Assembly (NCBI RefSeq): GCF_007097245.1
Contig: NZ_VJZT01000008.1
Coordinates: 1 to 64,000 of the forward strand
Origin: Flavobacterium restrictum
GTDB lineage: Bacteria; Bacteroidota; Bacteroidia; Flavobacteriales; Flavobacteriaceae
Direction: 5' to 3'
Length of the DNA: 64,000 nucleotides
Shown one piece after another: positions 21,107-64,000 of the stretch. Within the stretch, counting starts at the first letter, position 1. Each line of letters starts with the position of its first letter. Below the pieces are notes generated by a model. The model saw only the letters and a program-made list of their open reading frames with translations, had not been told where the DNA came from and made no database searches. The position numbers were made by a program, and so were the translations under genes.

Positions 21107-21134
21107 GGTATTTGGATTTTAAATGAAAATGAAA

Positions 21135-21161: not shown

Positions 21162-21181
21162 CAATAACGATTTATAAAAAT

Positions 21182-22348: not shown

Positions 22349-22364
22349 TGATAATAGTTAAATA

Positions 22365-23960: not shown

Positions 23961-23979
23961 ACTATTATTTTTATAAAAA

Positions 23980-30150: not shown

Positions 30151-30166
30151 TTATTTTAAATTAAAA

Positions 30167-30826
30167 ATGGAAAAGGTTAAAGCATTTATATTCGATTTAG
30201 ACGGGGTAATAGTAGACACGGCAAAATATCATTTTTTAGCTTGGAAAAAAATTGCCAACAAATTGAATATTGATTTTACTCACGAACACAACGAGTTGCT
30301 CAAAGGAGTAAGCCGCGTTCGTTCACTAGATATTATACTAGAATTAGGCAACATCAATGCCTCGCAAGAAGATAAAGACAAATGGTTGGTTCAAAAAAAC
30401 GAAGACTATTTATCCTATTTGGTCGATATGGATCAAAGTGAAATTCTGCCAGGAGTACTGCCTGTTTTAGACTATTTGAAACTAAAAAAACAACCCATTG
30501 CATTGGGTTCAGCCAGTAAAAACGCCAGGCCTATTCTAGCCAAAACAGGAATTCTAGATTATTTTGATGCCATTGTAGACGGCAATGACGTTTCGAATGC
30601 GAAACCCGATCCCGAAGTTTTCTTGATAGCGGCTCAATTATTACATACCGCACCGCAAGATGCTATTGTTTTTGAGGATTCAGTGGCAGGTGTTCAAGCG
30701 GCTAATATTGGGAATATGACCAGTATTGGTATTGGAGACACGGCCACTTTGAACGAAGCCCAATTTATATTTAAAGATTTTACACATATTGAAACTAGTT
30801 TTCTAGACCAATTAATCCAGAAGTAA
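30167..30826 (+). CDS. pgmB: beta-phosphoglucomutase
   Basis: 219-residue HAD-superfamily protein of normal PgmB length. Nucleophile D10 and acid/base D12 lie in FDLDGVIVDTA; the second motif is GSASKNAR (S115 to K118), the third K146 in NAKPDPE, and Mg2+ ligands E170-D171 in VFEDSVAGV. The helical cap (about 16-88) includes HFLAWKKIA. It converts beta-glucose-1-phosphate, made by the neighbouring GH65 phosphorylase, to glucose-6-phosphate. It lies between the transporter and the phosphorylase, with a 72-nt gap to the latter. Confidence 0.94.
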   Translation: MEKVKAFIFDLDGVIVDTAKYHFLAWKKIANKLNIDFTHEHNELLKGVSRVRSLDIILELGNINASQEDKDKWLVQKNEDYLSYLVDMDQSEILPGVLPVLDYLKLKKQPIALGSASKNARPILAKTGILDYFDAIVDGNDVSNAKPDPEVFLIAAQLLHTAPQDAIVFEDSVAGVQAANIGNMTSIGIGDTATLNEAQFIFKDFTHIETSFLDQLIQK

Positions 30827-30898
30827 TCCCGAAATGAAAGCTGTAGCTCGCTACTGTTTGCATGAAAATAACCATTGAAAAATTAATAAAAAAAACAA

Positions 30899-33205: not shown

Positions 33206-33211
33206 AACCAC

Positions 33212-33244
33212 AAACCCTTTCAAAACACTACTTTGAAAGGGTTT
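33212..33244 (+). terminator. hairpin between GH65 and the periplasmic GH13
   Basis: Perfect 13-bp stem (AAACCCTTTCAAA / TTTGAAAGGGTTT) with a 7-nt loop, right after the GH65 stop codon. The T tail is short, so it is probably a leaky terminator or an mRNA stabiliser separating the cytoplasmic and exported modules of the operon. Confidence 0.72.
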
Positions 33245-33259
33245 TAAAATTACATCAAA

Positions 33260-35098
33260 ATGAAAAAAATAGCACTCTTACTCGTTTTAGTTTCCAACTG
33301 CCTTTTGGCTCAAATCCAAAGAGTCGAACCCCCATTTTGGTACGCAGGAATGCACAATCCTGAACTTCAAATTTTATTCTATGGGAAAAATATTGCCCAA
33401 AACGACGTTTCCGTTTCTCACAATATTCCTATTCTGGAGGTCAAAAGAACCGAAAACCCCAATTACCTCTTTGTCACCATTGACACCCAAAAAGCAACAG
33501 CACAAGAACTCCTTTTTACTTTTTCTAAAGATAAAAAAGTGGCTTTTACCCAAAAATATGCCTTAAAACAACGAAGACCCAATTCAGCTCAACGCAAAAG
33601 TTACGATGCCTCGGATATGATTTACCTCATCATGTCTGATCGTTTTGCTAACGGAAATCCCAAAAATGATAGCAACCCAACGGTCATCGAAAAAGCCAAC
33701 CGCAGCAACCCAGGTGGCAGACATGGCGGCGATATTGCAGGAATGATTCAAAATTTAGATTACCTGAAAGAGTTGGGTGTAACCACATTATGGCCAACAC
33801 CACTTTGCGAAGACAATGACAAAGCCTACTCCTACCACACTTACGGCCAATCCGATGTGTATAAAATAGATCCCCGTTTTGGAACCAATGAGGAATATGT
33901 ACAACTATCCGCACAATTGCACCAGCGTGACATGAAACTTATCATGGATTATGTGACCAATCACTGGGGAATACAACACTGGATGATGAATGATTTACCA
34001 ACCAAGGATTGGATCAATCAATTTGAAACGTACACTGGAACCACGCATAAAAGAACAACCGTACACGATATAAACGCTTCCAAAATTGATTACGAAACCT
34101 GTTTCAACGGTTGGTTTGTGCCCTCAATGCCTGATTTAAACCAAACCAATCCATTGGTTCTAAACTACCTGACTCAAAACGCCATTTGGTGGATTGAATA
34201 CGCCAATGTAGATGGTTTTAGAGTAGATACGTATTCCTATTGCGACAAAGACGGCATTGCAAAATGGACAAAAGCAATAACAAACGAGTATCCTAATTTT
34301 AATATTGTTGGCGAAATTTGGATGCAAGACCAAGCACAAATGGCCTTTTGGCAAAAAAACAGTAAGATTGGAGCTATTCAAAACTTCAATTCGAATTTAC
34401 CTAGCGTTATGGATTTTGTTTTGCTAACCGCTTTACAAAGTGTTTTTAACGAAAATGAAGCTACTTGGGACAAAGGCATGATGAAAATCTACGACAATTT
34501 AGCCAATGATTTTTTATATCCAAATCCAAACAGCTTACTCATTTTTGCCGAAAATCATGATACCGATCGTTTCAACGAAACCTACAAAAACGATTTCAAA
34601 AAATACCAAATGGCCATGACACTGGTAGCTACACTTCGTGGAATTCCGCAATTGTATTACGGCTCCGAGATAGGAATGGCGGGTAATAAGAGTAAAGGTG
34701 GCGACGCAGCTATACGCCAAGATTTTCCTGGTGGCTGGAAAGGCGATACCAACAATGCGTTTTTAAAATCAGGTAGAACACCAGAGCAAGCCCAGTATTT
34801 TGACTTCACAGCAAAACTTTTTCAATGGCGAAAAACCAATGAAGCCGTACATTTTGGAAAAACCACACACTATATTCCTGAAAATAATGTGTATGTCTAT
34901 TTTCGATATACCGCTCAAAAAACGGTTATGGTGGTAGTCAACAACAGCGATAAAAACCAAACTGTAAAAACCAAACGATTTCAAGAAAACATTCAAAATT
35001 TCAATACAGGAACCGATGTCCTCACCGGAAAATCCGTCGATTTGAAAACCGATATGAATATTGATAGCAAATCGGTTTTACTATTAGAATTGAACTAA
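33260..35098 (+). CDS. periplasmic GH13 neopullulanase/cyclomaltodextrinase-like enzyme (SusA type)
   Basis: 612 residues, signal peptide ending LLAQ. N-terminal domain of the cyclomaltodextrinase type (RVEPPFWYAGMHNPELQILFYG, about 21-105), then the GH13 barrel. Region I is DYVTNHWG (230-237), II GFRVDTYSY with nucleophile D323, III VGEIWM with acid/base E352, and IV AENHDTDRF with D434. A C-terminal beta domain starts about 540. It degrades imported maltodextrins in the periplasm, as SusA does. First of three exported hydrolases in the operon, 18 nt before the GH31 gene. Confidence 0.92.
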   Translation: MKKIALLLVLVSNCLLAQIQRVEPPFWYAGMHNPELQILFYGKNIAQNDVSVSHNIPILEVKRTENPNYLFVTIDTQKATAQELLFTFSKDKKVAFTQKYALKQRRPNSAQRKSYDASDMIYLIMSDRFANGNPKNDSNPTVIEKANRSNPGGRHGGDIAGMIQNLDYLKELGVTTLWPTPLCEDNDKAYSYHTYGQSDVYKIDPRFGTNEEYVQLSAQLHQRDMKLIMDYVTNHWGIQHWMMNDLPTKDWINQFETYTGTTHKRTTVHDINASKIDYETCFNGWFVPSMPDLNQTNPLVLNYLTQNAIWWIEYANVDGFRVDTYSYCDKDGIAKWTKAITNEYPNFNIVGEIWMQDQAQMAFWQKNSKIGAIQNFNSNLPSVMDFVLLTALQSVFNENEATWDKGMMKIYDNLANDFLYPNPNSLLIFAENHDTDRFNETYKNDFKKYQMAMTLVATLRGIPQLYYGSEIGMAGNKSKGGDAAIRQDFPGGWKGDTNNAFLKSGRTPEQAQYFDFTAKLFQWRKTNEAVHFGKTTHYIPENNVYVYFRYTAQKTVMVVVNNSDKNQTVKTKRFQENIQNFNTGTDVLTGKSVDLKTDMNIDSKSVLLLELN

Positions 35099-35116
35099 AC
35101 GACTTTCCCAAACAAC

Positions 35117-37486
35117 ATGAAACAGTTATTCATCTATTTGCTAGCCACCGGTTTTGCTTTTGCACAAAACGCCAATCGCAACTACCTGAGCTATACAAAA
35201 ACCAACAGCACATTAGAAATAAAAACGACTGATGGGTTGTATTTGCTAAAACCGTATTCCGAGAACACTATCGAAACCACGTTTATTCCAAACGGAGAAC
35301 TATTCGATAAGGAGTCGCATGCCGTGGTTTTGATGCCTCAAAAAAACATTTCAAAAGTCACCGAAACCACAAAAACAATTGCGCTTTCGACCAAAGGAAT
35401 CCGTGTTATAATTGATAAAAAACCATTTAAAATTTCGTATTCGTACAAAAACAAATTGCTCCTTTCTGAAAAAAATGGCTATTCCAAAAATGAAAATACC
35501 CAAACCATAGATTTCAATCTTGACCCAACCGAAACCTTGTATGGTGGTGGCTCGAGAGCGTTAGGAATGAATCGGCGTGGCAATAGATTGCAATTGTACA
35601 ATCGGGCACAATTTGGGTATTCTAACCACGCTCCGCTGCTCAATTTTTGCATTCCACTAGTTTTATCTTCAAAAATGTATGCCGTTCATTTTGACAATCC
35701 CGCTACTGGCTATTTGGATTTAGACAGTCAAAAAAACAACACATTAGCCTATGAAACTAGTTCTGGACGAAAAACCTACCAAGTCATTGCAGCCGATTCT
35801 TGGACAGATTTGATTTCAAATTATACTGCTCTAACAGGCAAACAACCCTTGCCAGCACGATGGACATTAGGTAATTTCTCTAGTCGTTTTGGGTATCACA
35901 GCCAAGAAGAAGTCGAAAAAACCATCGAAAAATTCAAAAACGATTCCATTCCAGTTGACGCAATTATTATTGATTTATACTGGTTTGGCAAAACAATTCA
36001 AGGCACATTGGGCAATTTGGACTGGGACAAGGAACGTTTTCCAGACCCAACAAAAATGATCGCCCATTTGAATGCGAAAGACATCAAAACCGTACTCATA
36101 ACCGAGCCTTTTGTTTTAACAACTTCGAGCAAATGGCAAGAAGCCGTAGCCCAAAAAGTCTTGGCAACGGATGCTAGCGGAAATCCTTTTACGTATGATT
36201 TCTATTTTGGCAACACCGGAATAATCGACGTATTCAAACCCGAAGGCAAACAATGGTTTTGGTCCATTTACAAAAATTTAATTAACCAGGGCGTTGGTGG
36301 TTTGTGGGGCGATCTAGGCGAGCCCGAAGCATTCCCATCACAAGGCATTACTGCCAAAGGAAAAGCCGATGACGTCCATAATATTTACGGACACAACTGG
36401 GCAAAACTAGTGGCAGAAGGCTACCAAAAAGAGTTTCCCAACACACGCCCTTTCATCTTGATGCGCTCTGGGTACTCGGGTTCGCAGCGTTTTGGTATGA
36501 TTCCGTGGTCGGGTGATGTGAGCCGTTCTTGGGAAGGATTGCAATCGCAACCCGAAATTGCATTGCAAATGGGCATGCAAGGAATGGGATATATGCACTC
36601 GGATTTGGGTGGTTTTGCTGGCGATTATTTTGACAATGAATTGTACATTCGGTGGTTGCAATATGGCGTTTTCCAACCCATATTTCGTCCACATGCTGGC
36701 GAAGCTGTAGCATCAGAACCTGTTTATAAGGATATTGTCACCAAGGCAAAAGCCAAAAAAGAAATCGAATTGCGGTACCAAATGCTGCCATACAACTATA
36801 CTTTGGCATTCGAAAACAATCAAAAAGGAACACCATTAATGCGTCCGCTGCTGTTTGAAGAACCGCAAAATCAAGCCTTACTAAATGTTTCCGAAACCTA
36901 TTTTTGGGGAAATGACTTTTTGGTACATCCCATCACTTCGCCAGGAAGTACTGAAGCGGTTGTTTATTTTCCAAAAAACAACAATTGGTTCGACTTTTAT
37001 ACCGACGAAAAAAAGCAAGCAGGAACAACGGCAACTGTAGCGGTCGTTGCGGATCACATTCCCGTTTTTGTGCGTGGTGGCGCTTTCATTCCAAGGATTG
37101 CAACTATTCAAAACACATCAAAATATGCGTTGACAAATTTTGATTTGCATTTTTATTTTGATGAAAAAACACCCAAAAGCGAAGGACAATTGTACAATGA
37201 CAACGGGACAACGCCTAATGCTTATGAAAAAGGAGCTTTTGAAATCCTCAAATTCAATCAAGTTGCAACTGAAAAAGACCTCACCATAAACGTGACGACA
37301 ACAACAGGAAAAGCATTCCAATCTGCCGAAAAGAGGATGACTTTACTCGTTCATAATTTGAATGGAAAAGCCAAAAAAGTGCTCGTTGACGGAAAAAATG
37401 CTTCTTTCCAAACCAAAGAAAAAACAATCGAAATTACAGTGGTTTTGCAACAAGGAAAACCCAATACAATACACGTACAATTTTAA
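35117..37486 (+). CDS. GH31 alpha-glucosidase, periplasmic
   Basis: 789 residues, signal peptide ending FAFAQ (13-17). N-terminal beta sandwich with YGGGSRALGMNRRG, then the barrel. Nucleophile D399 lies in the GH31 signature GLWGDLGEPEAF and acid/base D467 in PWSGDVSRSWEGL; HSDLGGF follows. Proximal and distal C-terminal beta domains complete the usual GH31 architecture. It should release glucose from the non-reducing ends of maltodextrins. Sits tightly between two GH13 genes (18 and 10 nt gaps). GH31 also has alpha-xylosidases and transglucosidases, but the starch context favours alpha-glucosidase. Confidence 0.92.
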   Translation: MKQLFIYLLATGFAFAQNANRNYLSYTKTNSTLEIKTTDGLYLLKPYSENTIETTFIPNGELFDKESHAVVLMPQKNISKVTETTKTIALSTKGIRVIIDKKPFKISYSYKNKLLLSEKNGYSKNENTQTIDFNLDPTETLYGGGSRALGMNRRGNRLQLYNRAQFGYSNHAPLLNFCIPLVLSSKMYAVHFDNPATGYLDLDSQKNNTLAYETSSGRKTYQVIAADSWTDLISNYTALTGKQPLPARWTLGNFSSRFGYHSQEEVEKTIEKFKNDSIPVDAIIIDLYWFGKTIQGTLGNLDWDKERFPDPTKMIAHLNAKDIKTVLITEPFVLTTSSKWQEAVAQKVLATDASGNPFTYDFYFGNTGIIDVFKPEGKQWFWSIYKNLINQGVGGLWGDLGEPEAFPSQGITAKGKADDVHNIYGHNWAKLVAEGYQKEFPNTRPFILMRSGYSGSQRFGMIPWSGDVSRSWEGLQSQPEIALQMGMQGMGYMHSDLGGFAGDYFDNELYIRWLQYGVFQPIFRPHAGEAVASEPVYKDIVTKAKAKKEIELRYQMLPYNYTLAFENNQKGTPLMRPLLFEEPQNQALLNVSETYFWGNDFLVHPITSPGSTEAVVYFPKNNNWFDFYTDEKKQAGTTATVAVVADHIPVFVRGGAFIPRIATIQNTSKYALTNFDLHFYFDEKTPKSEGQLYNDNGTTPNAYEKGAFEILKFNQVATEKDLTINVTTTTGKAFQSAEKRMTLLVHNLNGKAKKVLVDGKNASFQTKEKTIEITVVLQQGKPNTIHVQF

Positions 37487-37496
37487 TAAAAACGCC

Positions 37497-39161
37497 ATGA
37501 AAAAAATTATTATTTATAGCTTGATTACATTTTCGCTAGTGCTATCCAGTTGTTCCTCAACCAAAAAAACAAGTATGAAAGAACCGCAAAAAACACCATT
37601 TGTTTGGGAAGGAGCTAATTTATATTTCTTGATGACGGATCGTTTTAACAATGGAGATCCAAGTACGGATGTAAACTTTGGTCGAGACAAAACTGCTGGA
37701 AAATTACGTGGTTTTGAAGGTGGCGACATCAAAGGAATCATTCAAAAAATAGACGATGGCTATTTTGAAAAATTAGGAATCAATGCCATTTGGCTGACCC
37801 CAATTGTGGAGCAAATTCACGACGGAGTTGATGAAGGAACTGGCTTAAGCTATGGCTTTCATGGCTATTGGGCAAGAGATTGGACGGCATTGGATCCTAA
37901 TTTTGGAACCAAAAAAGACCTCGCAGAATTAGTTACCAAAGCCCACGCCAAAGGCATCCGAATTGTACTCGATGGCGTCATCAACCATACTGGGCCAGTA
38001 ACGCCACTTGATACCGTTTGGCCAGAAAACTGGGTGCGCACCGGGCCACAATGCGATTACAAAAATTTTATGAATACAACCGCTTGTACCTTGGTTGCCA
38101 ATCTTCCTGATGTAAAAACCGAAAGCACTATTGAAGTAACAATTCCACCTTTTTTGGCCGAAAAATGGAAATCAGAAGGGCGTTATGATACTGAAATGGC
38201 ATCCTTAAATGCTTTTTTTACCCGCACTGGCTATCCAAGAACACCCAAGTATTACATCATCAAATGGTTGACGGATTACATCACTGAATTTGGAATTGAT
38301 GGCTACCGAGCCGATACTGTAAAACATACCGAAGAAGATGTTTGGGCTGATTTTAAAACCCAATGTAATTATGCTTTTGAAACTTGGAAGAAAAACAATC
38401 CCGAAAAAGTACTCGATAACAATGCTTTTTACACCATCGCCGAAGTATATAATTACGGCATAAGCGGCGGACAACTTTTTGACTTTGGAGACAAAAAAGT
38501 AAATTATTATCAAAACGGATTCAACAACATGATTAATTTTGAATTCAAATGGGATGCTCAAAAAGACTATGAATTTTTGTTCTCCAAATATTCCTCAAAA
38601 TTAAATAATGAGCTCAAAGGATACAGCGTCCTAAACTATTTGTCCTCTCACGACGACGGTGCTCCATTTGACCCCAAACGTGTCAAAAGTATTGAAAGCG
38701 GGACTAAATTATTGCTTTCGCCTGGACTTTCTCAAACCTATTATGGCGATGAATCGGGGCGTTCACTTGTCGTTCAAGGAACACAAGGCGATGCAACTTT
38801 ACGTTCGTTTATGAATTGGGATTCCATCAAAACCAATCCCGAAACCCAAAAAATAGTAGCGCATTGGCAAAAATTAGGACAATTTAGACACAATCATCCG
38901 TGTATTGGTGCGGGAATTCACACTCAAATTACGGCACAACCCTACACCTTTAGCCGAACGTTTACCAAAGACGGTTTTATAGACAAAGTAATTGTTGGTT
39001 TGGATATGCCTATTGGCAAAAAAGAACTTGCGGTAGCTTCCATTTTCAGCAACGGAACTACGTTAAGAGAAACCTATTCTGGCAAAGAAGTAGTTGTTGC
39101 TAATGGCAAAGTAGTAGTTGATTCGCCATTTGCCTTTGTATTATTGGAATTAAAAAACTAG
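37497..39161 (+). CDS. lipoprotein GH13 alpha-amylase
   Basis: I start at ATG 37497 (554 residues) because this gives a clean lipoprotein signal (LVLSSC, Cys19); a longer in-frame start at 37362 would lie inside the GH31 gene and is rejected. Catalytic regions: I DGVINHTGP (159-167), II GYRADTVKH with nucleophile D273, III AEVYNYG with acid/base E316, IV SSHDDG with D386. Residues after Cys19 are SSTKKTS with no acidic export signal, so the protein may stay on the periplasmic face instead of the surface. Last gene of the maltose operon; a terminator follows at 39216. Confidence 0.9.
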   Translation: MKKIIIYSLITFSLVLSSCSSTKKTSMKEPQKTPFVWEGANLYFLMTDRFNNGDPSTDVNFGRDKTAGKLRGFEGGDIKGIIQKIDDGYFEKLGINAIWLTPIVEQIHDGVDEGTGLSYGFHGYWARDWTALDPNFGTKKDLAELVTKAHAKGIRIVLDGVINHTGPVTPLDTVWPENWVRTGPQCDYKNFMNTTACTLVANLPDVKTESTIEVTIPPFLAEKWKSEGRYDTEMASLNAFFTRTGYPRTPKYYIIKWLTDYITEFGIDGYRADTVKHTEEDVWADFKTQCNYAFETWKKNNPEKVLDNNAFYTIAEVYNYGISGGQLFDFGDKKVNYYQNGFNNMINFEFKWDAQKDYEFLFSKYSSKLNNELKGYSVLNYLSSHDDGAPFDPKRVKSIESGTKLLLSPGLSQTYYGDESGRSLVVQGTQGDATLRSFMNWDSIKTNPETQKIVAHWQKLGQFRHNHPCIGAGIHTQITAQPYTFSRTFTKDGFIDKVIVGLDMPIGKKELAVASIFSNGTTLRETYSGKEVVVANGKVVVDSPFAFVLLELKN

Positions 39162-49697: not shown

Positions 49698-51719
49698 TTA
49701 TTGCACTATAATTTTTTGACTTAAAGTAGTATCTCCCACTAATTTTACTATGTATATTCCGGGTTTAAATGTGTTTGAAAGAGCGCCTTCACCCCTTACT
49801 TTTTGCTCATACACCATTTTTCCTTGTATGTCGTACACCGTAATCAAGCTGGATTCTCCCTCTTTTAAACCAGTTAATTTTAGGCTTATTTTTCCGTTAG
49901 TGGTTGGATTACAATATGCCACCATAGTTACCTTTTCTTCTTCAATTTGAATGCTTTTTGCATTCGACAATCGAGAAGTTGCCGTTCCCGCTGCGACTGG
50001 AGATAATTGCCATTGTGCACTATAAAAACTATCTTGAGATCCTGAATATTGAGCAAATCCAGTTTGTGCTTCTACATTAACAATACTGGCAGATTGCCAT
50101 TTATTTCTAATTCTAAACCAGGTACCATCAATGTATTCCGGTGTCCATTGCGCACTAGACCAACCAGCGGTTATACCGCCACATTGCACTGAACCAGTTT
50201 GGTTTTCTATGTGCATGAATTCGCCTGTACCAAGGTTTTTGAACTGCGTGTAGCGACCATCAACCATTACTTTTTCCCAACGGTAATTGTTGTTTGCTAC
50301 TGTTGCTCCATAGCCTACATTGGCGCCAGCATCATAAAGGTAGGTTCCTTTCCATCTGTTTTTAATGGTGAAATAATATTGGTTTGTAACCACGATATAC
50401 TGGTACGCATTCAAAGTCATTGTTGCGCCCGAAGTCAAGTTAATAGTTGCTCCTGTATACACCTCCTTGTAGGCTCCTGCCAATGCTGCGGGCACGACAA
50501 AAGTAGATGCCGATCCCCGTAAGTTAGTAAGAACTACAACTTTCTCGCTACCAGATGTCTTGGTAAAAGCACACACATTAGTATTAGAATAATTAGTCAT
50601 TGTACCCCGTCTAATGGCTTCGCTGGTGTTTCTAAAATTTAGAATTTTGGTGAAATCATTTTTTGCGGTAGTATTGCTCCAATTGATTTTCACTGTTGTA
50701 TACGGCCACGGAATTACTTGGTTGAAATCAGCTTCTTGACCACTGGTTAAAAACGGAACGCCACGCATATAGGCGGATACTAGAAAATTAGCAATTACAC
50801 CGTCGTGTCCACCAAAAACATTCATAGCCGTTTCAGTAGTTTCCGAGTCATGGTTTGCGGTATACCGAACCATTTGTTGTGTGGCATTTGCCGATGTGTA
50901 TTCCGTATTAGTAACCGTTTGAAGTTGCGCTACCGAACTTCCAGTGTGAACCGCTTTTATAGCATCTCCGTACCACTTAAATCCAAAATTCATGTCGAAA
51001 CCAGAAGTGAAATTTTGGGCAAGAGTTCCCTCGGCAAAAAGTACTAATTTATGCGACGTAATGCCTCTTAAATTAGTGATGGCTTGCGACCAGAAAGCAG
51101 CTGGGGCACTATCGGCAAAGTCACAGCGATAGCCATCAATATTGGCGGCAAATATCCAATAGCGCATGGCATCAATCATCGCTGCTTTCATTGTTGTGCT
51201 ATTGAAATTTAAGGCAGCAACATCCGAATACGTGCTTAATTGTTGAATCACACCATTGACTTGAACATAATAATCAGGATGTTGGGTAATCCAGGCATGA
51301 TCCCAGGAAGTTTGATTGGCAACCCAATCCAAGATAACGGCCATTCCTCGGCTATGTGCGGCATCAACAAGGTTTCGTAAATCCGTTAGCGAACCGTATT
51401 CTGTTCCTACAGCTTTAAAATCTTTGATGCAGTATGGAGAATTAGAACTTTTAGAATCAGTGCCATACGGATAAATAGGCATTAGATATAAAACAGTAAT
51501 ACCAAGTGCTTTGATTCGATCTAAATCTGCAGTGACAGCAGCTAGATTTCCTGCGGCACTGTGCGGTCGAATGTGCACCTGATAAATACTGGCATCTCTA
51601 AGATCCGAAACTCCTGTGTAAGGTGTTCCGTATTGAGCCGGATCTTGAGCATAGACTGCAGTTCCTATAAACAACAAGAAAAACAGTGTTGCATGTACTA
51701 ATTTTTTCATTTTTTTCAT
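49698..51719 (-). CDS. secreted GH13 alpha-amylase-like protein with beta-trefoil-like repeats and T9SS tail
   Basis: 673 residues, signal peptide ending AVYAQ. GH13 barrel about 40-370 with nucleophile D200 (GYRCDFADS), acid/base E230 (LFAEGT) and D291 (TANHDSET). Region I reads DWVANQTSW (131-139): the histidine that is nearly universal in this motif (NH, present in the paralogue at 55677-57056) is Q here. After the amylase C-terminal domain come repeated segments with WKGTYLYD, NLGTGEFMHIEN and NKWQSASIVNVEA (about 450-575), resembling a ricin-type carbohydrate-binding trefoil. The end is a divergent T9SS tail (CNPTTNGKISLKL ... FKPGIYIVKLVGD). Probably starch-active outside the cell, but the Q substitution may change activity. 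Confidence 0.85.
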   Translation of the reverse strand: MKKMKKLVHATLFFLLFIGTAVYAQDPAQYGTPYTGVSDLRDASIYQVHIRPHSAAGNLAAVTADLDRIKALGITVLYLMPIYPYGTDSKSSNSPYCIKDFKAVGTEYGSLTDLRNLVDAAHSRGMAVILDWVANQTSWDHAWITQHPDYYVQVNGVIQQLSTYSDVAALNFNSTTMKAAMIDAMRYWIFAANIDGYRCDFADSAPAAFWSQAITNLRGITSHKLVLFAEGTLAQNFTSGFDMNFGFKWYGDAIKAVHTGSSVAQLQTVTNTEYTSANATQQMVRYTANHDSETTETAMNVFGGHDGVIANFLVSAYMRGVPFLTSGQEADFNQVIPWPYTTVKINWSNTTAKNDFTKILNFRNTSEAIRRGTMTNYSNTNVCAFTKTSGSEKVVVLTNLRGSASTFVVPAALAGAYKEVYTGATINLTSGATMTLNAYQYIVVTNQYYFTIKNRWKGTYLYDAGANVGYGATVANNNYRWEKVMVDGRYTQFKNLGTGEFMHIENQTGSVQCGGITAGWSSAQWTPEYIDGTWFRIRNKWQSASIVNVEAQTGFAQYSGSQDSFYSAQWQLSPVAAGTATSRLSNAKSIQIEEEKVTMVAYCNPTTNGKISLKLTGLKEGESSLITVYDIQGKMVYEQKVRGEGALSNTFKPGIYIVKLVGDTTLSQKIIVQ

Positions 51720-52022: not shown

Positions 52023-53246
52023 TTATTGTTTTACCACTTTCATCGTTTTGGTACCTGAAGCTGTGGTTACTTTGGCAAAATAAATACCGCTAGTTAATCC
52101 CGAGGCGTCAAGAGTCACTTTGCTGTTTTTGGGAGTAACGGTTTTAATTGTTCTTCCGGTGATATCAACAAGATGAATGCTTTCTATAGTCTCTTTGGAA
52201 CTGCTAAAAGTCCAATTACTTTGCGCTGGGTTAGGATACACGTTGAATGATGATGCGTCAAAAGTGGCAAGACCTAGCGTATTAGTGATAACATAAGCAA
52301 ATGTTGTTTTGTTAAAACTAATATTGAAGGTACCTGTTGAAGGAACAGTAATACCATCTGCATCGATTACAGCTGTACCAGAAGGAAAGTCAGTTCCACC
52401 CCAGTTGTAAGGCAAAGTCCAAGAGTGATCGCCACGAAATTTTAAAGCACCAGGAATTAAAGCCACATTATTGAGGGTATAATTGATTCCATCTGTAGTA
52501 GTCATATCGGTGTCAAAATCCCATTTACCAGGAGTTCCTCCTCCAAAGATGCTGATTACTTGAAATGTAAAACTGTAAGCAAGGGTTGTTTTGTTAAAAG
52601 TAATATTATAAAGACCAGCCGTTGGAATAGCAATGCCATTTGCCGCTACTACTGCCGTACCTGACGGAAAATCAGTTCCTCCCCAATCATAAGGTAAAAC
52701 CCAAGCATGATCTCCTCTAAATTTTAATGCTCCAGGAATTAACGCTACGTTTTTTATGCTGTAGATAACGCCATCTGTGGTAGTCATGTCCGTATCAGTA
52801 GTCCATTTTCCTGGGGTGGCGTCTCCAAAGATACTCACCACCTGAAATGTTGCGGCCTGAAGATTGATTGCATAAGCCAAAGTCGAAGTGTCAAACGTAA
52901 TATTGTAAGTCCCAGTTGTTGGGATTGTAATACCACTAGCCTGCACTACTGCTGTACCAGACGGAAAAGCAGTTCCTCCCCAGTCGTAAGGCAAATCCCA
53001 AGAATGGTTGCCACGAAATTTCAAAGCGCCAGGAATCAAAGCCACATTGGTAATTGTGTAAACAACTCCGTCAGTGGTGGTCATGTCGGTATCAGTAGTC
53101 CAAGATCCTGGGGTTGCGTCTCCAAAAATACTGACTACCAGAGCAGCTGTGTTTTGTTTTTGGATAGAAGAGAGCGGTTCTGTTTTTGCATTTGCAAAAG
53201 AAAATGTCAAAAGACACATAACGAATAATAGTACTTTTTTGTTCAT
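52023..53246 (-). CDS. secreted protein with three SusE/F-type starch-binding domains and a T9SS tail
   Basis: 407 residues, type I signal peptide (ending FANA). Three near-identical modules follow, at about 37-129, 136-228 and 230-322. Each has (V)SIFG..TPG.W.(T/F)DTDMTTTDG, VALIPGALKFRG(D/N)H(S/A)W.LPY(D/N)WGGT.FPSGTAV and a closing strand. The ALKFR...W core matches the last module of the SusE-like lipoprotein at 57181-58245 (AGALKFRLNDAWTINYG), so these are alpha-glucan-binding modules, with conserved Trp such as W83 and W89 as likely ligand stackers. Residues 330-407 are a T9SS type A sorting domain (VYPNPAQSNWTFSS ... LTSGIYFAKV). No catalytic domain. It probably tethers or concentrates starch for the amylases beside it. 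Confidence 0.85.
   Translation of the reverse strand: MNKKVLLFVMCLLTFSFANAKTEPLSSIQKQNTAALVVSIFGDATPGSWTTDTDMTTTDGVVYTITNVALIPGALKFRGNHSWDLPYDWGGTAFPSGTAVVQASGITIPTTGTYNITFDTSTLAYAINLQAATFQVVSIFGDATPGKWTTDTDMTTTDGVIYSIKNVALIPGALKFRGDHAWVLPYDWGGTDFPSGTAVVAANGIAIPTAGLYNITFNKTTLAYSFTFQVISIFGGGTPGKWDFDTDMTTTDGINYTLNNVALIPGALKFRGDHSWTLPYNWGGTDFPSGTAVIDADGITVPSTGTFNISFNKTTFAYVITNTLGLATFDASSFNVYPNPAQSNWTFSSSKETIESIHLVDITGRTIKTVTPKNSKVTLDASGLTSGIYFAKVTTASGTKTMKVVKQ
52281..53138 (-). repeat. three tandem ~280-bp coding repeats
   Basis: DNA of the three modules: 53138-52860, 52841-52563 and 52559-52281 (start-to-start distance about 297 and 282 bp). They share long near-identical stretches, implying fairly recent tandem duplication or ongoing gene conversion. 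Confidence 0.8.
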
Positions 53247-53342: not shown

Positions 53343-55641
<2,299 letters not shown>

Positions 55642-55676: not shown

Positions 55677-57056
55677 CTAATTTTTGAGAACGAGATATTG
55701 AAATGGCAAAACCATAACCTCGGTTGTAAAGGATGTTGCTGCTCCAGTGAAACCATCTTTCCAAGCGATTTTTGCTAATGGAGCTGGAAGAATATATTTG
55801 GCACTTACAGGGGTAAGGTTCGAAAGGACAAACACTTTTTCAGTTTCGGTTTCCATGGTAAATGCGCTAATGGCATCGCTACTAAAACCTTTGTAGGTTC
55901 CAGTTTTTAGGGCGTTACTGGTGTTTCTAAAAGCGATTATTTTTTTGTATTCTGCTAGCATATTGGCGTCGGCCGTAGTCCAATCGATGGGCGTTTTGGT
56001 AAAATAATCGATTCTTTTTTTGTATCCAATTTCTTGTCCGTTGTAAATCATAGGAACTGATTTCATGTAAGCAGCAACCACAAACGCCGCTATAGAACCT
56101 TGTTTGCCGCCAAACAACTCAAGTGGTGTACCGTCCGAGAGGTTCACGTCATGATTGGTCGTGTAGCGTACAATGCGTTGCGAGTTGTCATAATTAATAG
56201 CATATTCAGCTGCATTGGCGTCTTGCAATGTAGTAGCCGATTTGTTTTCGCCAAAGACTTTTTTCAAACCACCATAAAATCCGAAACCAAACGTATAATC
56301 GAAACCAGCGGCAAAGTGGCTCACTTTTGACCCTTCGGCAAGCATTAATAGGTTTTGATTTTTGATTTTTCGCAAAGCGGTAATGGCTTGTGACCAAAAA
56401 CTTTGCGGAACACCATCGGCATAATCGCATCTAAAACCGTCGATATTAGCGGTATATACCCAGTAGGACATGGCGTCAATCATGGCGTTTTTCATGTCTT
56501 GATTGTCAAAATTCAATTGAGCAACATCATTATAATTGGTTCCAGGAGGAATTATAATGTTCCCATTGGCATCTTTTTGATAGTATTCCGGGTGTGTGGT
56601 AATCCAAGCATTGTCCCAAGCGGTATGGTTAGCCACCCAATCCAGGATAACGGCCATGTTTTTTTTGTGCGCTTCTTCGACCAAAACTTGCAAATCAGCT
56701 AGAGTTCCAAATTCGGTACTTACCGCTTTGTAATCCTTAACAGAATAAGGAGAACCCAATCCACCCGCAGAGCGAACTTGACCCACAGGATAAATAGGCA
56801 TTAAATAAATAACATTTACGCCCAGTTCTTGAATCGCTGTCAATCGATCTTGAACCCCTTTCAGGTTCCCGGCTTGGCTAAAAGCACGAATGTTGACTTG
56901 ATAAATAATGGCATCTTCCTTTTTGGGCATTTTTTCAAAAGGGGTACCGTATTGTGTGTAGGCTGGATTGGTATTCGAATTATCATCCGATGCGCTACAG
57001 GAAACCAACGTCAGTGCGAAAAGGAGTAGGTAAACGATGTGTGTATGTACTTTCAT
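55677..57056 (-). CDS. lipoprotein GH13 alpha-amylase (SusG-like)
   Basis: 459 residues. Lipobox LTLVSC (Cys20), then SASDDNSN with acidic residues soon after the cysteine, as in surface-exposed Bacteroidota lipoproteins. GH13 regions: I DWVANHTAW (139-147, with the standard His), II GFRCDYADG with nucleophile D211, III LAEGSK with acid/base E241, IV TTNHDVN with D303. A short C-terminal beta domain ends at 459. It should cut starch at the cell surface and feed the SusCDE proteins encoded upstream. A hairpin at 57100-57131 separates it from susE. It is paralogous to the T9SS-tailed GH13 at 49698-51719. Confidence 0.92.
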   Translation of the reverse strand: MKVHTHIVYLLLFALTLVSCSASDDNSNTNPAYTQYGTPFEKMPKKEDAIIYQVNIRAFSQAGNLKGVQDRLTAIQELGVNVIYLMPIYPVGQVRSAGGLGSPYSVKDYKAVSTEFGTLADLQVLVEEAHKKNMAVILDWVANHTAWDNAWITTHPEYYQKDANGNIIIPPGTNYNDVAQLNFDNQDMKNAMIDAMSYWVYTANIDGFRCDYADGVPQSFWSQAITALRKIKNQNLLMLAEGSKVSHFAAGFDYTFGFGFYGGLKKVFGENKSATTLQDANAAEYAINYDNSQRIVRYTTNHDVNLSDGTPLELFGGKQGSIAAFVVAAYMKSVPMIYNGQEIGYKKRIDYFTKTPIDWTTADANMLAEYKKIIAFRNTSNALKTGTYKGFSSDAISAFTMETETEKVFVLSNLTPVSAKYILPAPLAKIAWKDGFTGAATSFTTEVMVLPFQYLVLKN

Positions 57057-57180: not shown

Positions 57181-58245
57181 TTAGATTTTTTTAACGGTAT
57201 AAATTGCAGTTGCAGGATATACTCCTGTAGTTGGGTCTTTCTCTTGAATAGAAAAAGTCACCTCATAGTTCCCCGCTTCGGCGACATCATAAGCACCTTG
57301 ATTGTCAAGATACATGATGCCGTCATTGTTGTTTTTGGCACCATAATTTATAGTCCAAGCATCATTCAATCTAAATTTTAGAGCACCGGCTAGCAATGCG
57401 CCTTTGAATTTCCAAATTTTGAGTTGGTGATCGTAGGTCATAGCGGTACTGCTATTCCAGCCGCCAGCCGTTGCTGTTCCTATTATGCCCCAAGCATAGG
57501 GCGTTGCCGTCCATTTTGAGGTGTTTAAATTCACCATCATTTGATAGGTTCCCGCTTTTGCAACAGCAAAATCAATGTTGCTTCCGTCAACCAGATTGCC
57601 ATTCGCATCGGCGCCATAAAACTGATTCCAATTGCGTTCGTTTGTGAATTTGAAACCCAACCCTTTTGAAGCAGGAAAAGTTACATATCCTTGGTAAATA
57701 CCGCTATCAACTGCGTCCAAGGCTGCTGCGGTCGCGGCATCCCAATCTTGGTAACTACCTGGCATATAAATGGCACCAAATACCACTTTTTTGGCAAAAG
57801 GAGTCACGGCTAATTCGATAGCTTCGGAGGTGATTTTTCGGTCCAAAGTAGCCACAACACGCACTAGAATTTTGCCTTCCACGTCAGCGGTTAGGCCTAG
57901 TTTAATAGCCATTTTATTCAAATCTGTTCCTAAAAAAGATTTGCTTAACACGTCCTCACCAGCTTCAACAGCAATAGCATTTGCCCAAGTCACATCAGTA
58001 GCTGTATCAAATAAAAGAGTATAGGCAACAGGTGCATTTATAGGAAAAACTACCGCTGGCCATGAGATAGTAGTCACGGCTTGGCTTGCAGTTTCGGATT
58101 TAAGTACGACTTTGCTTGGAGAAGCTTCAATAGGAGCCGTAAAGTTTACTTCTTTCAAAGTAGTGAGTTCAGCATTGTTTTCGCAGGAAGATCCCACAAA
58201 AACGAACGCGCAAATTACGAGTAACTTGTTGATGTATTTTTTCAT
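57181..58245 (-). CDS. SusE/F-like starch-binding lipoprotein (locus 2)
   Basis: 354 residues. Lipobox VGSSC (Cys21) then ENNAELT. N-terminal SusE domain (about 30-150), then two SusE/F carbohydrate-binding modules: IYMPGSYQDWDAATAAALD...KFTNERNWNQFYG (about 155-250) and WGIIGTATAGGWNSSTAMTYD...ALKFRLNDAWTINYG (about 252-354). Aromatic residues in these loops are likely to stack on alpha-glucan helices. Starts 13 nt after the susD stop. Its last module is the closest relative in this window of the triple modules at 52023-53246. Confidence 0.88.
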   Translation of the reverse strand: MKKYINKLLVICAFVFVGSSCENNAELTTLKEVNFTAPIEASPSKVVLKSETASQAVTTISWPAVVFPINAPVAYTLLFDTATDVTWANAIAVEAGEDVLSKSFLGTDLNKMAIKLGLTADVEGKILVRVVATLDRKITSEAIELAVTPFAKKVVFGAIYMPGSYQDWDAATAAALDAVDSGIYQGYVTFPASKGLGFKFTNERNWNQFYGADANGNLVDGSNIDFAVAKAGTYQMMVNLNTSKWTATPYAWGIIGTATAGGWNSSTAMTYDHQLKIWKFKGALLAGALKFRLNDAWTINYGAKNNNDGIMYLDNQGAYDVAEAGNYEVTFSIQEKDPTTGVYPATAIYTVKKI

Positions 58246-58258: not shown

Positions 58259-59752
58259 TTAGTAACCTGGATTTTGTTTGAGTCCTTTGTTGGCATCAAG
58301 TGCGGCCGTTGGAATTGGGTATAATTTTCGGTACTCGGCGGAGCTTCCTCTAAATTGATTTGGCAACAAAAAAGTATCAAATCGGATCATGTCTTGTCGT
58401 CTATGCCCTTCCCAACTTAATTCAAATCCTCTTTCGTTATAAATATCCGTAAGGGTTGGGTTTGCGGCTAATATGCCGAGTCCAGCACGTTGTCTCACTT
58501 GGTCTATAAATGGTTTTGCCGCGGTTGCATTGCCCAATCGAACATTGCATTCGGCAATCATTAATAGCACATCGGCATAGCGGTAAATAGGAAAATCATT
58601 AGACGCACCACCACCGTCCATTGGGGTAACTGGATAAAATTTTACATCACGAACACCTGCTTGAGGTGCTGCACCAGGATTGTCTAATGAGGCTACATCT
58701 ACCGTATAATTGACACCGCCTCCTTGATCGCCGTACAAGAATTGTTTTTTACGAATATCAGTAGCGTTGAATTTTTGGAAATAATCTTTGGGAACAATCG
58801 TACCATTCCATCCGCTGTATCCAAACAAGGTTTTTGCGTGTGGCCCATACAAACTACGCACCGAAAAGATGTTGCGAGAAACCACATTTGCTGTAGCAAA
58901 AATGGACAAAATAGTTTCGTCATCCGGAAGTACATCGCCAAAGAGTTCGTAATATTTATTTCCTAAAGGGCTAGAAGCATTAGCAGCACCTGAATGAAGC
59001 GAATATCCTCCTTGAGTCACTTTCTCGCAAGCGGCCAAGGCTTCTTGCCATTTTGGTGTACCAGTATACACACCAGCATTCAAATACACTTTGGCTAATA
59101 AAGTATAGCCTGCCCACTTGTTGAATCGTCCGTAGTAATTTCCGCCTTTGGTAACCGATAGTAACTCCACATTTTCTGTCAATTCTTTTACAACAAAAGC
59201 ATATACCTCTTGACGTGTTGCTTGTGGAATTTTGTCTACCGTAATTTCATTGTCCGTATAAAAAGGAACGTTCCCAAAATCATCAATTAATAAATAATAG
59301 AAAAAAGCGCGCAATACCTTTGCTTCGGCAATTTTTGAAGGTTCGGCATTTGATTTTTCTAATTGATTTACGGCTAAATTGGCATTAAAAATAGATTTGT
59401 ATAACCATTTCCAAGTGTTGTTAATGAAGGAATCCGTAGGCAACCATTCGTGTTTGTACAAACGGGCAAAATCCAATTCCCAGTCTCCTGTTGTTCTATG
59501 CGGAATCACTTGCTCATCCGAAGCAAAAGAGTTTAAGTCATACCAACCTCTATCAGCTCCAGCATATCCTACGCCATCCCAGTTGCCACCTACTTGAGCG
59601 TAAACGCTTGCTAATGCAACATCAGCTCCTTTTGCAGATCCATAAAAGTCATCTGCGGTGTATTTATCATACACATTTTCATCTATATTGGTACACCCAA
59701 TAAGCATCAAGAAACTTACGCTTCCTAATACCAGTATATTTTTGATTTTCAT
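58259..59752 (-). CDS. SusD/RagB-family lipoprotein (locus 2)
   Basis: 497 residues. Lipobox MLIGC (Cys20). SusD features: helix segment KVLRAFFYYLLIDDFGNVPFYTD, KVYLNAGVYTGTPKW, and the C-terminal signature DIYNERGFELSWEGHRRQDMIRFDTF, ending ANKGLKQNPGY. It forms the lid of the SusC channel encoded directly upstream (9-nt gap) and binds oligosaccharides before import. Confidence 0.93.
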   Translation of the reverse strand: MKIKNILVLGSVSFLMLIGCTNIDENVYDKYTADDFYGSAKGADVALASVYAQVGGNWDGVGYAGADRGWYDLNSFASDEQVIPHRTTGDWELDFARLYKHEWLPTDSFINNTWKWLYKSIFNANLAVNQLEKSNAEPSKIAEAKVLRAFFYYLLIDDFGNVPFYTDNEITVDKIPQATRQEVYAFVVKELTENVELLSVTKGGNYYGRFNKWAGYTLLAKVYLNAGVYTGTPKWQEALAACEKVTQGGYSLHSGAANASSPLGNKYYELFGDVLPDDETILSIFATANVVSRNIFSVRSLYGPHAKTLFGYSGWNGTIVPKDYFQKFNATDIRKKQFLYGDQGGGVNYTVDVASLDNPGAAPQAGVRDVKFYPVTPMDGGGASNDFPIYRYADVLLMIAECNVRLGNATAAKPFIDQVRQRAGLGILAANPTLTDIYNERGFELSWEGHRRQDMIRFDTFLLPNQFRGSSAEYRKLYPIPTAALDANKGLKQNPGY

Positions 59753-59761: not shown

Positions 59762-62700
59762 CTATTTAAATTTTACATTTAGACTTATGGCAAAGCTTCT
59801 AGTGCGGGGATAAATTCCGTTATCGCCACCAGATCCATTGCCCCCACTCAAATTCAACTCAGGGTCAATTCCAGAATAAGGAGTAATCAATAGTAAATTA
59901 TTTCCGGTTACAGCAAGTCGAACTGATTCGATGTATTTCACTTTTTCGAAATGAAAATTATAACCCACCGTTACATTTTCTAATCGAAGAAAAGAACCAT
60001 CCTCAAGCCATAAATCAGATCCGTATTTAGACGTAAATAAACCTAAAGGAATGGCACTATCTAATACATTTGCTTTACCAATGTTTTCTAAATAACTCAA
60101 ACTAGAGTGCAAACCATTGTAAATTTTATTACCACCTGAACCTCTCCAAAGCATTGAAATATCTAGGTTTTTATGTTGGAAAGTGGGGTTAAAAGCATAC
60201 GTATAGGTTGGCAAAGCTGAACCTTTGATAAGGCGATCCGCACTAGTATTGCCTTGATCAATTACACCATCACCGTTGACATCTTGAACGGTTTCGGAAT
60301 TGGCGTTGTCTTTGCCCGTATGGTGCAAAATATTGAAAGTCCCAATGGGTTGTCCGGCTATTAAATACGAACTTGGTCCCCACGAAACATTATTGGTGTT
60401 CAAAGGAACGCCATTGATACTGCCGCTTAAGTTTAAAACCTCATTGCGCAAGAAGGAAACATTTCCTGCCAAGGTTAGTGTTGTATTTTCGGATTTTATA
60501 AGGTCGTAACCCAAGGCAATTTCGAGTCCATCGTTACGAAGACTTCCCACATTTGCTTTGATACTATTGTACGGAAACGGTGGTTGCGGGACGGTATAAT
60601 CAAATAATAAATTATCAGTAGTTGCGGTATAAGCGTCAACAGCACCGCGTAATCTTTTGTTAAAAAGAGCAAAATCAAGACCGATATTGGTTTGTTTTTT
60701 GGTTTCCCAACGCAAATCGGCATTGGCATTTTGAATCACATTAAAATTGGTAATTTGAGACCCTCCAAAATACGTTACGCCAGAACCACCCACTAACGAA
60801 ATAGAGTTTTGCGGCCCTAAACCTTGCTGATTTCCTGTAACACCGTAACCACCACGTAGTTTTAACTCGTCAAAAATAGTTTGGTTTGCCATAAAAGGCT
60901 CTTGGTCTATTTGCCAAGCAACCGATGCAGATGGAAAATCACCCCATTTATTATTAGCTCCAAACACCGAAGAACCATCTCTTCGCAAACTCGCCGTAAA
61001 CAAATAGCGGCTTAAAAAAGAGTAATTCACACGTCCTAGATACGAAACTAAAGTGCGATCATTTTTATAGGAACTAATATCACCCGGTTGCACTTTTGAC
61101 AAATCGCCCAGTTGCATGGCATTGTAAGTAGCAATATCATTGATAAATCCTCGAGCTTGCGCATAATTACCTTGGTACAACTGGTTTTGCCATTCGTACA
61201 AAGCTAATGCGTTGATACTGTGGTTTCCAAATGTTTTTTTGTACGAAAGACTGATGTTCATCAACCGTTCGTTTTGCTTGTTATTGTTAATGTTTGCAAA
61301 TCCTTTTTGGTCAATTGCAGCGGCATTAGTAGATTCGGCTGGAAGGTAAAATCCGTTGGTGCTGTTGGTTTTTCTCCAGCTCCCAAACCAGCCTGCCGTT
61401 ACGCCTTTGAACAAGTCTAAATCCGCTTTAAGACTCCCGAATAAATTGTCATATTGCCCCTCGTTAGTAACAGTTTGTGCCGCAGCATAAGGATTCAAGT
61501 ATTGAAAAACATTGGGATCCGTATAATACGTTCCATCGGTATTGTAAACGGGATCCGTAGGACGCATTACATAAGCATTTGTAATTAAATTTGAGGTAAA
61601 AGCCGCTCTACCAATGCTCCCAATACTATTTGTAGCATTGGTAACACCACTATTTAGATTGAAAGTCAATTTTAATTTATCGTCAATAGCCGATTGTGTA
61701 GCTTGAATGCGGCCAATGTATTTTTGATTGCTCGTATTGATCACAACACCATCTTGCAAAATGGCACTGATAGAAGCTCTATAACTAAATTTATCCGTGC
61801 CACCACCAAAGGATAAGGTGTGCGTTTGAGTAGCACCACCTTTGGTAAGAATACCGTACCAATCCGTATTGGAACCATGATTCGCAGAGGCTGGCACACC
61901 CACTAATTGCGCTTGTTGCCACCATTGATCAGCGTTGAGCATGTCTAATTTTTTAGGAATATAATCTACCGCCATAGAGGTCGAATATTCTACGGTTGTT
62001 TTTCCTGATTTGTTCTTTTTGGTACTTACAATGATAACTCCTGGTGCTCCTCTAGAACCATAAATTGCAGTTGCCGATGCATCCTTTAATACATCGATTG
62101 AGGCAATTTCGCTTGGAGGAATTTGGTTGAGTAAATCCATATTTCCTTGCACCCCATCAACCACTACAAGCGGATCATTTCCTCCAATTAATGACGAAAT
62201 TCCACGTATTCTAATGCTTGGTGCAGCGCCAGGCTCACTACCCGTTTGCGTAATGTTGACCCCAGCCAATTTTCCCGAAATTAATTGCAACGGATTTACA
62301 ACAGCACCTTGATTCATGTCCTTGGCAGCAATCGAGGAAACGGCACCTGTTACATCCTTTCTAGAGGCGGTTCCGTAACCCACAAGCACCACTTCCTTCA
62401 ACTCGGTCGTGTCTGGAAACAACTGAATAACAGTGATGTTTTGATTGACAGAAATCTTTTTTGGTTTATAACCCACATACGAAACAACCAGATTGGCTTC
62501 GCTGTTTTCAACTGTTATTTCAAAATTTCCATCTAGATCCGTAATGACGCTTTTCTTGGTCGCTTCTTCCATAATAGTGGCGCCAAGAAGCGGCATAGCA
62601 TTCTCGTCAGTTACTTTTCCTTTGATTGTTTTTTTTACAAAAAAGATCGTGTTTGTTTTTTCGACAAGCGGTTTTATCAAAATAACTTGCGTGTCTCTAA

Positions 62701-63025
62701 TTTTATAATCCGTAGCCGTTCCTTTGAATATTTTATTCAAAACGAGATCAATAGTTTCGTTTTTTACATTGATAGAAATTACTCGGTCTAGGTCAATGTC
62801 ATTGATTTTGTAAATGAATCGAAAATCGGTTTTTTGTTCAATCGTTTCTAGAACCGTTTCTACCGTAGTATTTTTTAATTCTAAATCAACTTTTGTTTTT
62901 TGGGCATACGTATTGGCTCTAATAGAGAAAATGGAGACCAAAAGGAGTAATGTCGTTAGTTTCAATTTTAGGTCATTTTGGAACAATGGAAATCGCATTC
63001 CACTGTTCTTTGGTTTTTTTTTCAT
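59762..63025 (-). CDS. SusC/RagA-family TonB-linked transporter with STN domain (locus 2)
   Basis: 1087 residues. Signal peptide ending RANTYAQ; an STN (secretin/TonB N-terminal) domain at about 43-112 (VDLELKNTTVETVLETIEQKTDFRFIYK); carboxypeptidase-D-like domain at about 131-200; plug with VLVGYGTASRKDVTGAVSS and SIRIRGISSLIGGNDPLVVVDGV; then the barrel ending SLNVKFK. The STN domain marks transporters that signal to a FecR anti-sigma factor, and a fecR gene lies 131 nt upstream on the same strand. The first SusC in this window (23980-27057) lacks STN. It imports alpha-glucan oligosaccharides, judging from the following amylase genes. Confidence 0.94.
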   Translation of the reverse strand: MKKKPKNSGMRFPLFQNDLKLKLTTLLLLVSIFSIRANTYAQKTKVDLELKNTTVETVLETIEQKTDFRFIYKINDIDLDRVISINVKNETIDLVLNKIFKGTATDYKIRDTQVILIKPLVEKTNTIFFVKKTIKGKVTDENAMPLLGATIMEEATKKSVITDLDGNFEITVENSEANLVVSYVGYKPKKISVNQNITVIQLFPDTTELKEVVLVGYGTASRKDVTGAVSSIAAKDMNQGAVVNPLQLISGKLAGVNITQTGSEPGAAPSIRIRGISSLIGGNDPLVVVDGVQGNMDLLNQIPPSEIASIDVLKDASATAIYGSRGAPGVIIVSTKKNKSGKTTVEYSTSMAVDYIPKKLDMLNADQWWQQAQLVGVPASANHGSNTDWYGILTKGGATQTHTLSFGGGTDKFSYRASISAILQDGVVINTSNQKYIGRIQATQSAIDDKLKLTFNLNSGVTNATNSIGSIGRAAFTSNLITNAYVMRPTDPVYNTDGTYYTDPNVFQYLNPYAAAQTVTNEGQYDNLFGSLKADLDLFKGVTAGWFGSWRKTNSTNGFYLPAESTNAAAIDQKGFANINNNKQNERLMNISLSYKKTFGNHSINALALYEWQNQLYQGNYAQARGFINDIATYNAMQLGDLSKVQPGDISSYKNDRTLVSYLGRVNYSFLSRYLFTASLRRDGSSVFGANNKWGDFPSASVAWQIDQEPFMANQTIFDELKLRGGYGVTGNQQGLGPQNSISLVGGSGVTYFGGSQITNFNVIQNANADLRWETKKQTNIGLDFALFNKRLRGAVDAYTATTDNLLFDYTVPQPPFPYNSIKANVGSLRNDGLEIALGYDLIKSENTTLTLAGNVSFLRNEVLNLSGSINGVPLNTNNVSWGPSSYLIAGQPIGTFNILHHTGKDNANSETVQDVNGDGVIDQGNTSADRLIKGSALPTYTYAFNPTFQHKNLDISMLWRGSGGNKIYNGLHSSLSYLENIGKANVLDSAIPLGLFTSKYGSDLWLEDGSFLRLENVTVGYNFHFEKVKYIESVRLAVTGNNLLLITPYSGIDPELNLSGGNGSGGDNGIYPRTRSFAISLNVKFK

Positions 63026-63156: not shown

Positions 63157-64000
63157 TTATTTAATTAGTATTTGATCGTTTTTAAAGGTGTAATTGAGTC
63201 CGTGAATTTCGTTAAAGTAACTCAAGACTTTTTCTATAGGCACATCATCAAAACTGGCATAAAATTTCTCGTTGTCCAGTTTATTATTGTGATTGGTAAT
63301 GGTCACGTTGTAGTGTCGCTCCAGTTTTTTGGAAATGTCTTTAAAGCTCATGTTTCTAAACGTTAATCGCCCTTCCATCCAGGAAGTATAGACGCTTGTC
63401 ACCACGGCTTTGGTATCAATTACGCCACCAATTTTAGTAAAACTTCCTTTGAATCCGGGTTTCAAAACCGTGTTTTTGGCGGCATCAAATACTTCGTTTT
63501 TTTGATACAATCCCACGGAACCTTCTACTAAAACCACATCTGTAGATGGATCTTCGGGATAGCTTGAAACGTTAAAATGGGTTCCCAAAACACGGACATT
63601 CAAGTTATCCGCATTAACAATAAAGGGGTGTTTTTTATCCTTTGTAACGTCAAAAAAAGCTTCTCCATCCAGAAAAACTTGTCGGTTTTCGCCAGCTATA
63701 AACCGCACAGGATAGCGCAAAGTGGTTCCCGAGTTGAGGTGTACTCGAGTCCCATCAGACAATTGCAATTCAAATCGTTTTCCGTAAGGAATTTTGATAG
63801 TATTGTAAACCAATTTTTCTAGAGCCGTTTGAGTGTCGTATGTTATTTTATTTCCGTTGTGATTAGCGACAACATTCCCTTCGGAATCTGTGACTTTGGA
63901 GGTGTTTCCTGAAATAATTTGGACATCGCCATTGGCCAATTGCAACGTGATTTGATCACTACTGGCAATAATCGCCTTGTTGTTTTGATCCTTCAAACGG
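63157..64000 (-). CDS. FecR-type anti-sigma factor, partial (5' end outside the window)
   Basis: About 280 C-terminal residues are visible; the frame remains open to the window edge, so the N-terminal cytoplasmic and membrane part is missing. The FecR domain is seen as YGKRFELQLSDGTRVHLNSGTTLRYPVRF, REVFLDGEAFF-like QVFLDGEAFFDVTKDKKHPFIV and VLGTHFNVSSYPED. A C-terminal DUF4974 segment follows (FKDISKKLERHYNVTI ... VPIEKVLSYFNEIHGLNYTF). Such proteins hold an ECF sigma factor until the STN domain of the partner SusC signals substrate. The sigma factor gene would be expected just outside the window. Confidence 0.93.
   Translation of the reverse strand, partial: RLKDQNNKAIIASSDQITLQLANGDVQIISGNTSKVTDSEGNVVANHNGNKITYDTQTALEKLVYNTIKIPYGKRFELQLSDGTRVHLNSGTTLRYPVRFIAGENRQVFLDGEAFFDVTKDKKHPFIVNADNLNVRVLGTHFNVSSYPEDPSTDVVLVEGSVGLYQKNEVFDAAKNTVLKPGFKGSFTKIGGVIDTKAVVTSVYTSWMEGRLTFRNMSFKDISKKLERHYNVTITNHNNKLDNEKFYASFDDVPIEKVLSYFNEIHGLNYTFKNDQILIK

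Follow-up and report, generated by a model that had tools for sequence, protein, structure and literature searches.

In the Sus model, glycans are captured by lipoproteins that lie beside SusCD. The functional principle, a non-catalytic protein of tandem X25 modules that is exported and carries a tag for attachment, has already been described in Sas20/Sca5, and mutation of Sas20 W481, the equivalent of Sca5 W661, eliminates binding of maltotriose and maltoheptaose (PMC9112005). FjDusE, a SusE/F homologue of Flavobacterium johnsoniae, binds alpha-glucans, its hold on dextran being tight and that on starch weak (PMC10316084). Phage display on starch has selected clones resembling SusF_SusE domains (PMC10076258). 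Among T9SS substrates, type A sorting domains lead to static anchoring (RemA) or release (AmyB), while some type B proteins ride the gliding machinery and others are static (PMC12618676); PorP-like proteins are binding partners of type B substrates (PMC9143113). T9SS-exported proteins built of SusE/F modules were not found described in a search of open-access literature.

The window, a stretch of 64,000 nucleotides from Flavobacterium restrictum, contains a minus-strand ORF (52023-53246, ATG start) encoding a protein of 407 aa. The start codon is supported, since its ATG is the same Met as the start in close relatives. The protein begins with a Sec signal peptide (residues 1-20, MNKKVLLFVMCLLTFSFANA; 53187..53246), continues with three tandem modules of about 92 aa of the X25 (SusE/F) type and ends in a T9SS C-terminal sorting domain of type A (residues 332-407, alternatively delimited as 336-407; 52026..52253), all encoded on the minus strand. 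Modules 1 (residues 37-127; 52866..53138) and 3 (residues 230-321; 52284..52559) are supported by the module profile and their site residues, module 1 also by PF16411, and module 2 (residues 136-227; 52566..52841) by the module profile and by the fold matches of a lone-module model (pLDDT 97.8). The full-length AlphaFold model has a pLDDT of 87, with low confidence in a short stretch after the signal peptide and in the linker near 325-330. Neither Pfam nor NCBIfam gave an enzyme domain, and nothing resembling a cohesin, a dockerin or another protein-docking domain was found in the protein.

The N-terminus, on inspection, has a hydrophobic segment with an AxA-type end (..LTFSFANA/KTEP, the slash marking the predicted cleavage site) and no lipobox, and the model places a helix at residues 3-18. 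The sorting domain matches TIGR04183 (E 8.4e-16, 57.7 bits against 23) and PF18962 (E 1.7e-14), and the fold of the tail matches T9SS CTDs (8gl6, Z 11.1; 8glk, Z 11.1; 8glj, Z 10.6). The genome encodes the T9SS translocon gene sprA (TIGR04189, 2806.7 bits). Judged by sequence, the protein is a predicted T9SS type A substrate. FspA is a T9SS substrate whose CTD (8glj) is the sequence in the PDB closest to that of the tail; it was considered as a family member and rejected, its closest genomic match being subtilase-like and without modules.

The modules are predicted to be SusE/F-type (X25) folds. The protein matches PF16411 (SusF_SusE) in Pfam with E 5.5e-8 and 33.7 bits, against a curated cut-off of 27.5, and the top three Foldseek matches of the full model are SusF (8e-7), the second X25 module of Sca5 (4e-5) and SusE with alpha-cyclodextrin (4e-4). 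The module 2 model alone superimposes on SusF with Z 11.7 and 2.3 Å over 89 residues, followed by the Sca5 X25 module (Z 9.1), SusE (Z 9.0) and a pullulanase X25 module (Z 7.9); the top 10 rows of this comparison are all starch enzymes, pullulanase and amylase included, or starch-binding domains. The Foldseek E-values of the lone module exceed 0.05, and it is therefore the Z-scores, Pfam and the Foldseek result of the full model that jointly support the SusE/F assignment. SusF and SusE were absent among the PDB sequence-search matches, the link to them having come from the fold comparison and Pfam. A module profile that included SusE domains matched BT3088, a dextran surface glycan-binding protein, with E 2.4e-7, and Sca5 weakly (E 0.5). 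Alphavirus E1 matches in the PDB phmmer search of the whole protein (E about 0.1) were set aside as chance.

Each module carries a predicted glucan-binding site, formed by W49, K76, R78, W83 and W89 in module 1, W148, K175, R177, W182 and W188 in module 2, and W242, K269, R271, W276 and W282 in module 3. The W-K-R-W-W set is thus kept at the sequence level in three of three modules; its retention in all three repeats, and the occurrence of orthologues elsewhere, rule out chance as the source of the three-module architecture. In the weak alignment given by the SusE-inclusive profile, the invariant Trp of KFRxxxxW (W83/W182/W276) is paired with Sca5 W661. The Sca5 numbering was counted along the alignment; it reproduces W620 and W661 as published (PMC9112005) and is consistent with the fold comparison, which pairs residue 1 of the module with Sca5 603. 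Sca5 W620 has no firm counterpart in the window modules because of an insertion. Starch-PUL copies have the site residues in every module (3/3, 4/4 and 5/5), with the exception of the first Trp of module 1 at three loci, which may reflect an alignment shift.

In a tree of modules, those of the window protein cluster only with the modules of its nearest relative and not position by position across species, a grouping which suggests duplication or homogenisation of the repeats within lineages. The same tree placed 175 of 176 T9SS-labelled modules, the label being a crude rule of motif and length, together with 13 SusE-labelled ones in a single group of 188, at low support (0.57). Given this support and this label, and since T9SS and SusE modules are not cleanly parted, no origin was read from the tree.

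The gene lies in a starch PUL whose minus-strand order is FecR, SusC, SusD, SusE, GH13, GH97, the three-module gene and a T9SS-tailed GH13. The FecR-type anti-sigma regulator (63157..63999; PF04773, E 6.9e-19) extends to the window edge. SusC (59762-63025) and SusD (58259-59752) were assigned from the ORF sequences and from the order common to relatives. The SusE lipoprotein (57181..58245) has a PF14292 domain (E 8.6e-13) and two X25-like modules, the last domain sharing 27-30% identity with the three window modules. The next gene encodes a GH13 alpha-amylase (55677..57056; PF00128, E 1.3e-35), a probable lipoprotein with an LVSC motif near its N-terminus. The immediate neighbours of the three-module gene are a GH97 enzyme upstream (53343..55592; PF10566, E 1.3e-103) and a GH13 alpha-amylase with a T9SS tail downstream (49698..51719; PF00128, E 4.1e-30; TIGR04183, E 9.7e-10). 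A promoter and terminator scan gave no signal above chance, so gene order is what suggests co-transcription of the three-module gene with the PUL. Elsewhere in the window are a second alpha-glucan PUL (16117-27057) with GH97, a T9SS-tailed GH13 (18206-21106) and a weakly SusE-like protein, and a series of genes for LacI, MFS, GH65, cyclomaltodextrinase, GH31 and GH13 proteins (27292-39161).

The preliminary description of this gene, made from the DNA alone, had proposed three tandem SusE/F-type modules behind a type I signal peptide, a T9SS sorting domain, the lack of a catalytic domain and a position between two starch enzymes, and all of these were borne out. Its term 'near-identical' is too strong for modules that share 68-78% pairwise identity in protein and 72-75% in DNA, and the scaffold role that it also entertained is rejected, no docking domain having been found. 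A surface or released starch tether appears to be the best reading of its suggestions on role.

The analysis shows the domain composition of the 407-aa protein, its predicted fold, the conservation of its site residues, the setting of its gene and the presence of sprA in the genome. We consider it probable that the protein is a non-catalytic, multivalent alpha-glucan-binding tether exported by T9SS, similar in action to SusE/F and to Sas20/Sca5. Its production would go along with that of the starch PUL; Sec would export it and T9SS would carry it across the outer membrane via PorV, after which it would be held at the cell surface, released, or both. Each X25 module, with its own aromatic site, would contribute to a multipoint grip on starch, amylopectin or glycogen, the ligands that we infer for it. 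Polymer held near the cell in this way would help cutting by the T9SS amylase and uptake of fragments by SusCDE, and this is where a physiological benefit would lie. Counting against an alpha-glucan tether are that related paralogues lie outside PULs, between ndk and bshC, so that modules of this group are not confined to starch PULs, that the nearest solved relative by sequence, BT3088, is a dextran binder, that Sca5 is matched only weakly in sequence, and that the Sca5 X25 modules bind as a pair and not singly (PMC9112005).

The design, which had been thought singular, recurs. A search with the 407-aa protein gave matches in 297 of 299 Flavobacterium genomes, many through the common T9SS tail alone; matches reaching the module region occur in at least 71 of the 299. 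A plasmid search gave no match. The loci that were compared are the best matches and not a random sample of Flavobacterium, and they fall mainly into three settings: the starch PUL beside GH97, a maltodextrin operon, and a conserved site at ndk-bshC that belongs to no PUL. The GH97-adjacent position is common to relatives, and carriers of the starch-PUL form include F. cellulosilyticum, F. franklandianum, Flavobacterium sp. AED and several metagenome-assembled genomes. In the maltodextrin operon, T9SS module proteins lie beside a GH13 amylase at 5 loci. Next to ndk and/or bshC there are 22 T9SS module proteins, and the BshC and Ndk identities were confirmed with NCBIfam in the copies tested. 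The T9SS relatives have from 2 to 10 modules, mostly 3. The W-K-R-W-W pattern is gone from the middle module in most three-module paralogues of the ndk-bshC and maltodextrin settings.

The F. restrictum genome itself has two further enzyme-free T9SS SusE/F-domain proteins. One is among the 22 of the ndk-bshC setting (L058:935-2161, contig C21). The other (L071:12898-13914, contig C61) has two SusF_SusE domains and a T9SS tail, and the PUL around it encodes T9SS-tailed GH31/CBM6/CBM35 and GH43/ricin/PA14 proteins. Giant proteins of more than 3000 aa also contain such modules, three in L069:1-10341 and one in L070:1482-10910, the latter with fn3 and Ig-like domains and a T9SS tail. Outside Flavobacterium, matches are mostly lipoprotein SusE; T9SS versions occur in four loci (L097, L098, L077 and L096), two of which (L097 and L098) represent the sporadic occurrence of the window-type architecture elsewhere in Bacteroidota. 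A combination of CBM4_9 and HYR with three SusE/F-like modules and a T9SS tail recurs in L077:637-2874, L096:364-2607 and L072:8700-11021.

In three relatives (L039, L040 and L043) GH97 of the starch PUL is followed by a protein of 721-817 aa with 4-5 modules, and the gene after that resembles PorP/SprF in size and sequence. Pfam gives the proteins at L039:9250-11415 (9250-12321 with the PorP/SprF-type gene) and L043:9812-12265 putative Ig, TSP3 and CHU_C (type B) domains; the one at L040:8849-11014 was assigned by similarity. The neighbouring gene matches PF11751 (PorP_SprF) at L039 and was assigned by similarity at L040 and L043. The layout of these pairs is like that of a surface adhesin, and they lend some weight to a reading in which the window protein is mainly a cell-surface adhesin to starch-bearing surfaces such as algal debris and granules, starch being a handhold and not chiefly a meal. 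The same may be said of the paralogues outside PULs with up to 10 modules; the ndk-bshC proteins have 3-10 modules, the middle one usually degenerate in three-module forms. We regard the adhesin reading as unlikely for the window protein, which has a type A and not a type B CTD, has no SprF gene adjacent and is placed among glucan enzymes. As a tentative and rather doubtful generalisation, Flavobacterium may have a class of enzyme-free starch-binding T9SS proteins that differ in number of modules and in sorting tag. Its starch PULs would then encode one of two forms, a tether of type A, static or released, or an adhesin of the type B/SprF kind, the latter possibly gliding and coupling starch capture to movement over surfaces.

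A released helper of the amylase, whose soluble modules loosen granules or hold substrate for the T9SS enzyme away from the cell, seems less likely again: the adjoining gene does encode a T9SS amylase and type A domains can give release, as that of AmyB does, but no amylase-docking domain was found and type A domains can also anchor, as in RemA (PMC12618676). Least likely of all is that alpha-1,4-glucan is not what the modules bind and that their ligand is, for instance, dextran, a different alpha-glucan or an exopolysaccharide made by the cell itself, as the kinship with dextran-binding BT3088 and the paralogues at ndk-bshC and in the GH31/GH43 PUL might hint, for the window copy is within a GH13/GH97 PUL and further relatives adjoin the amylase of the maltodextrin operon.

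The tether that we favour, and its relatives, suggest that in Flavobacterium SusE/F modules have been moved onto a second export route, on which the sorting tag would set where the grip is located: static, released or possibly moving. T9SS proteins of this kind offer a simple system for studying a possible coupling of glycan capture and gliding, and the ndk-bshC paralogues, away from PULs, form a conserved set.

Compared with known systems, the protein resembles SusF/SusE of Bacteroides thetaiotaomicron (PDB 4fe9, 4fem, 4fch) in its tandem modules of the same fold and its place in a starch PUL, and SusF also in having three modules. Unlike them it lacks the lipoprotein signal Cys and the N-terminal SusE/Ig domain (it has no PF14292 match, whereas the PUL's own SusE has one), it carries a T9SS type A tail, and its gene is not beside susD, that place being taken by the SusE gene at 57181-58245. 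By profile match, predicted fold and site residues it is a member of the X25 module family, but as a whole protein it is not a SusE/SusF lipoprotein. FjDusE (Fjoh_4432), from the F. johnsoniae dextran PUL, is likewise of the SusF_SusE superfamily with three beta-sandwich modules, but is a predicted lipoprotein with an Ig domain and a preference for dextran, and no T9SS tail has been reported for it (PMC10316084). RemA and AmyB of F. johnsoniae share the type of tail, type A and handled by PorV, and SprB shares its layout with the type B form of the relatives and their PorP/SprF genes, but none of the three is described as a SusE/F-module protein (PMC12618676). Sas20/Sca5 of the R. bromii amylosome (PDB 7rpy) differ in their Gram-positive host, in attachment by dockerin/cohesin and sortase and in X25 pairs that form one clamshell site, and they share with the window protein the absence of catalysis, the export, the tandem X25 modules and the position of the key Trp (PMC9112005).
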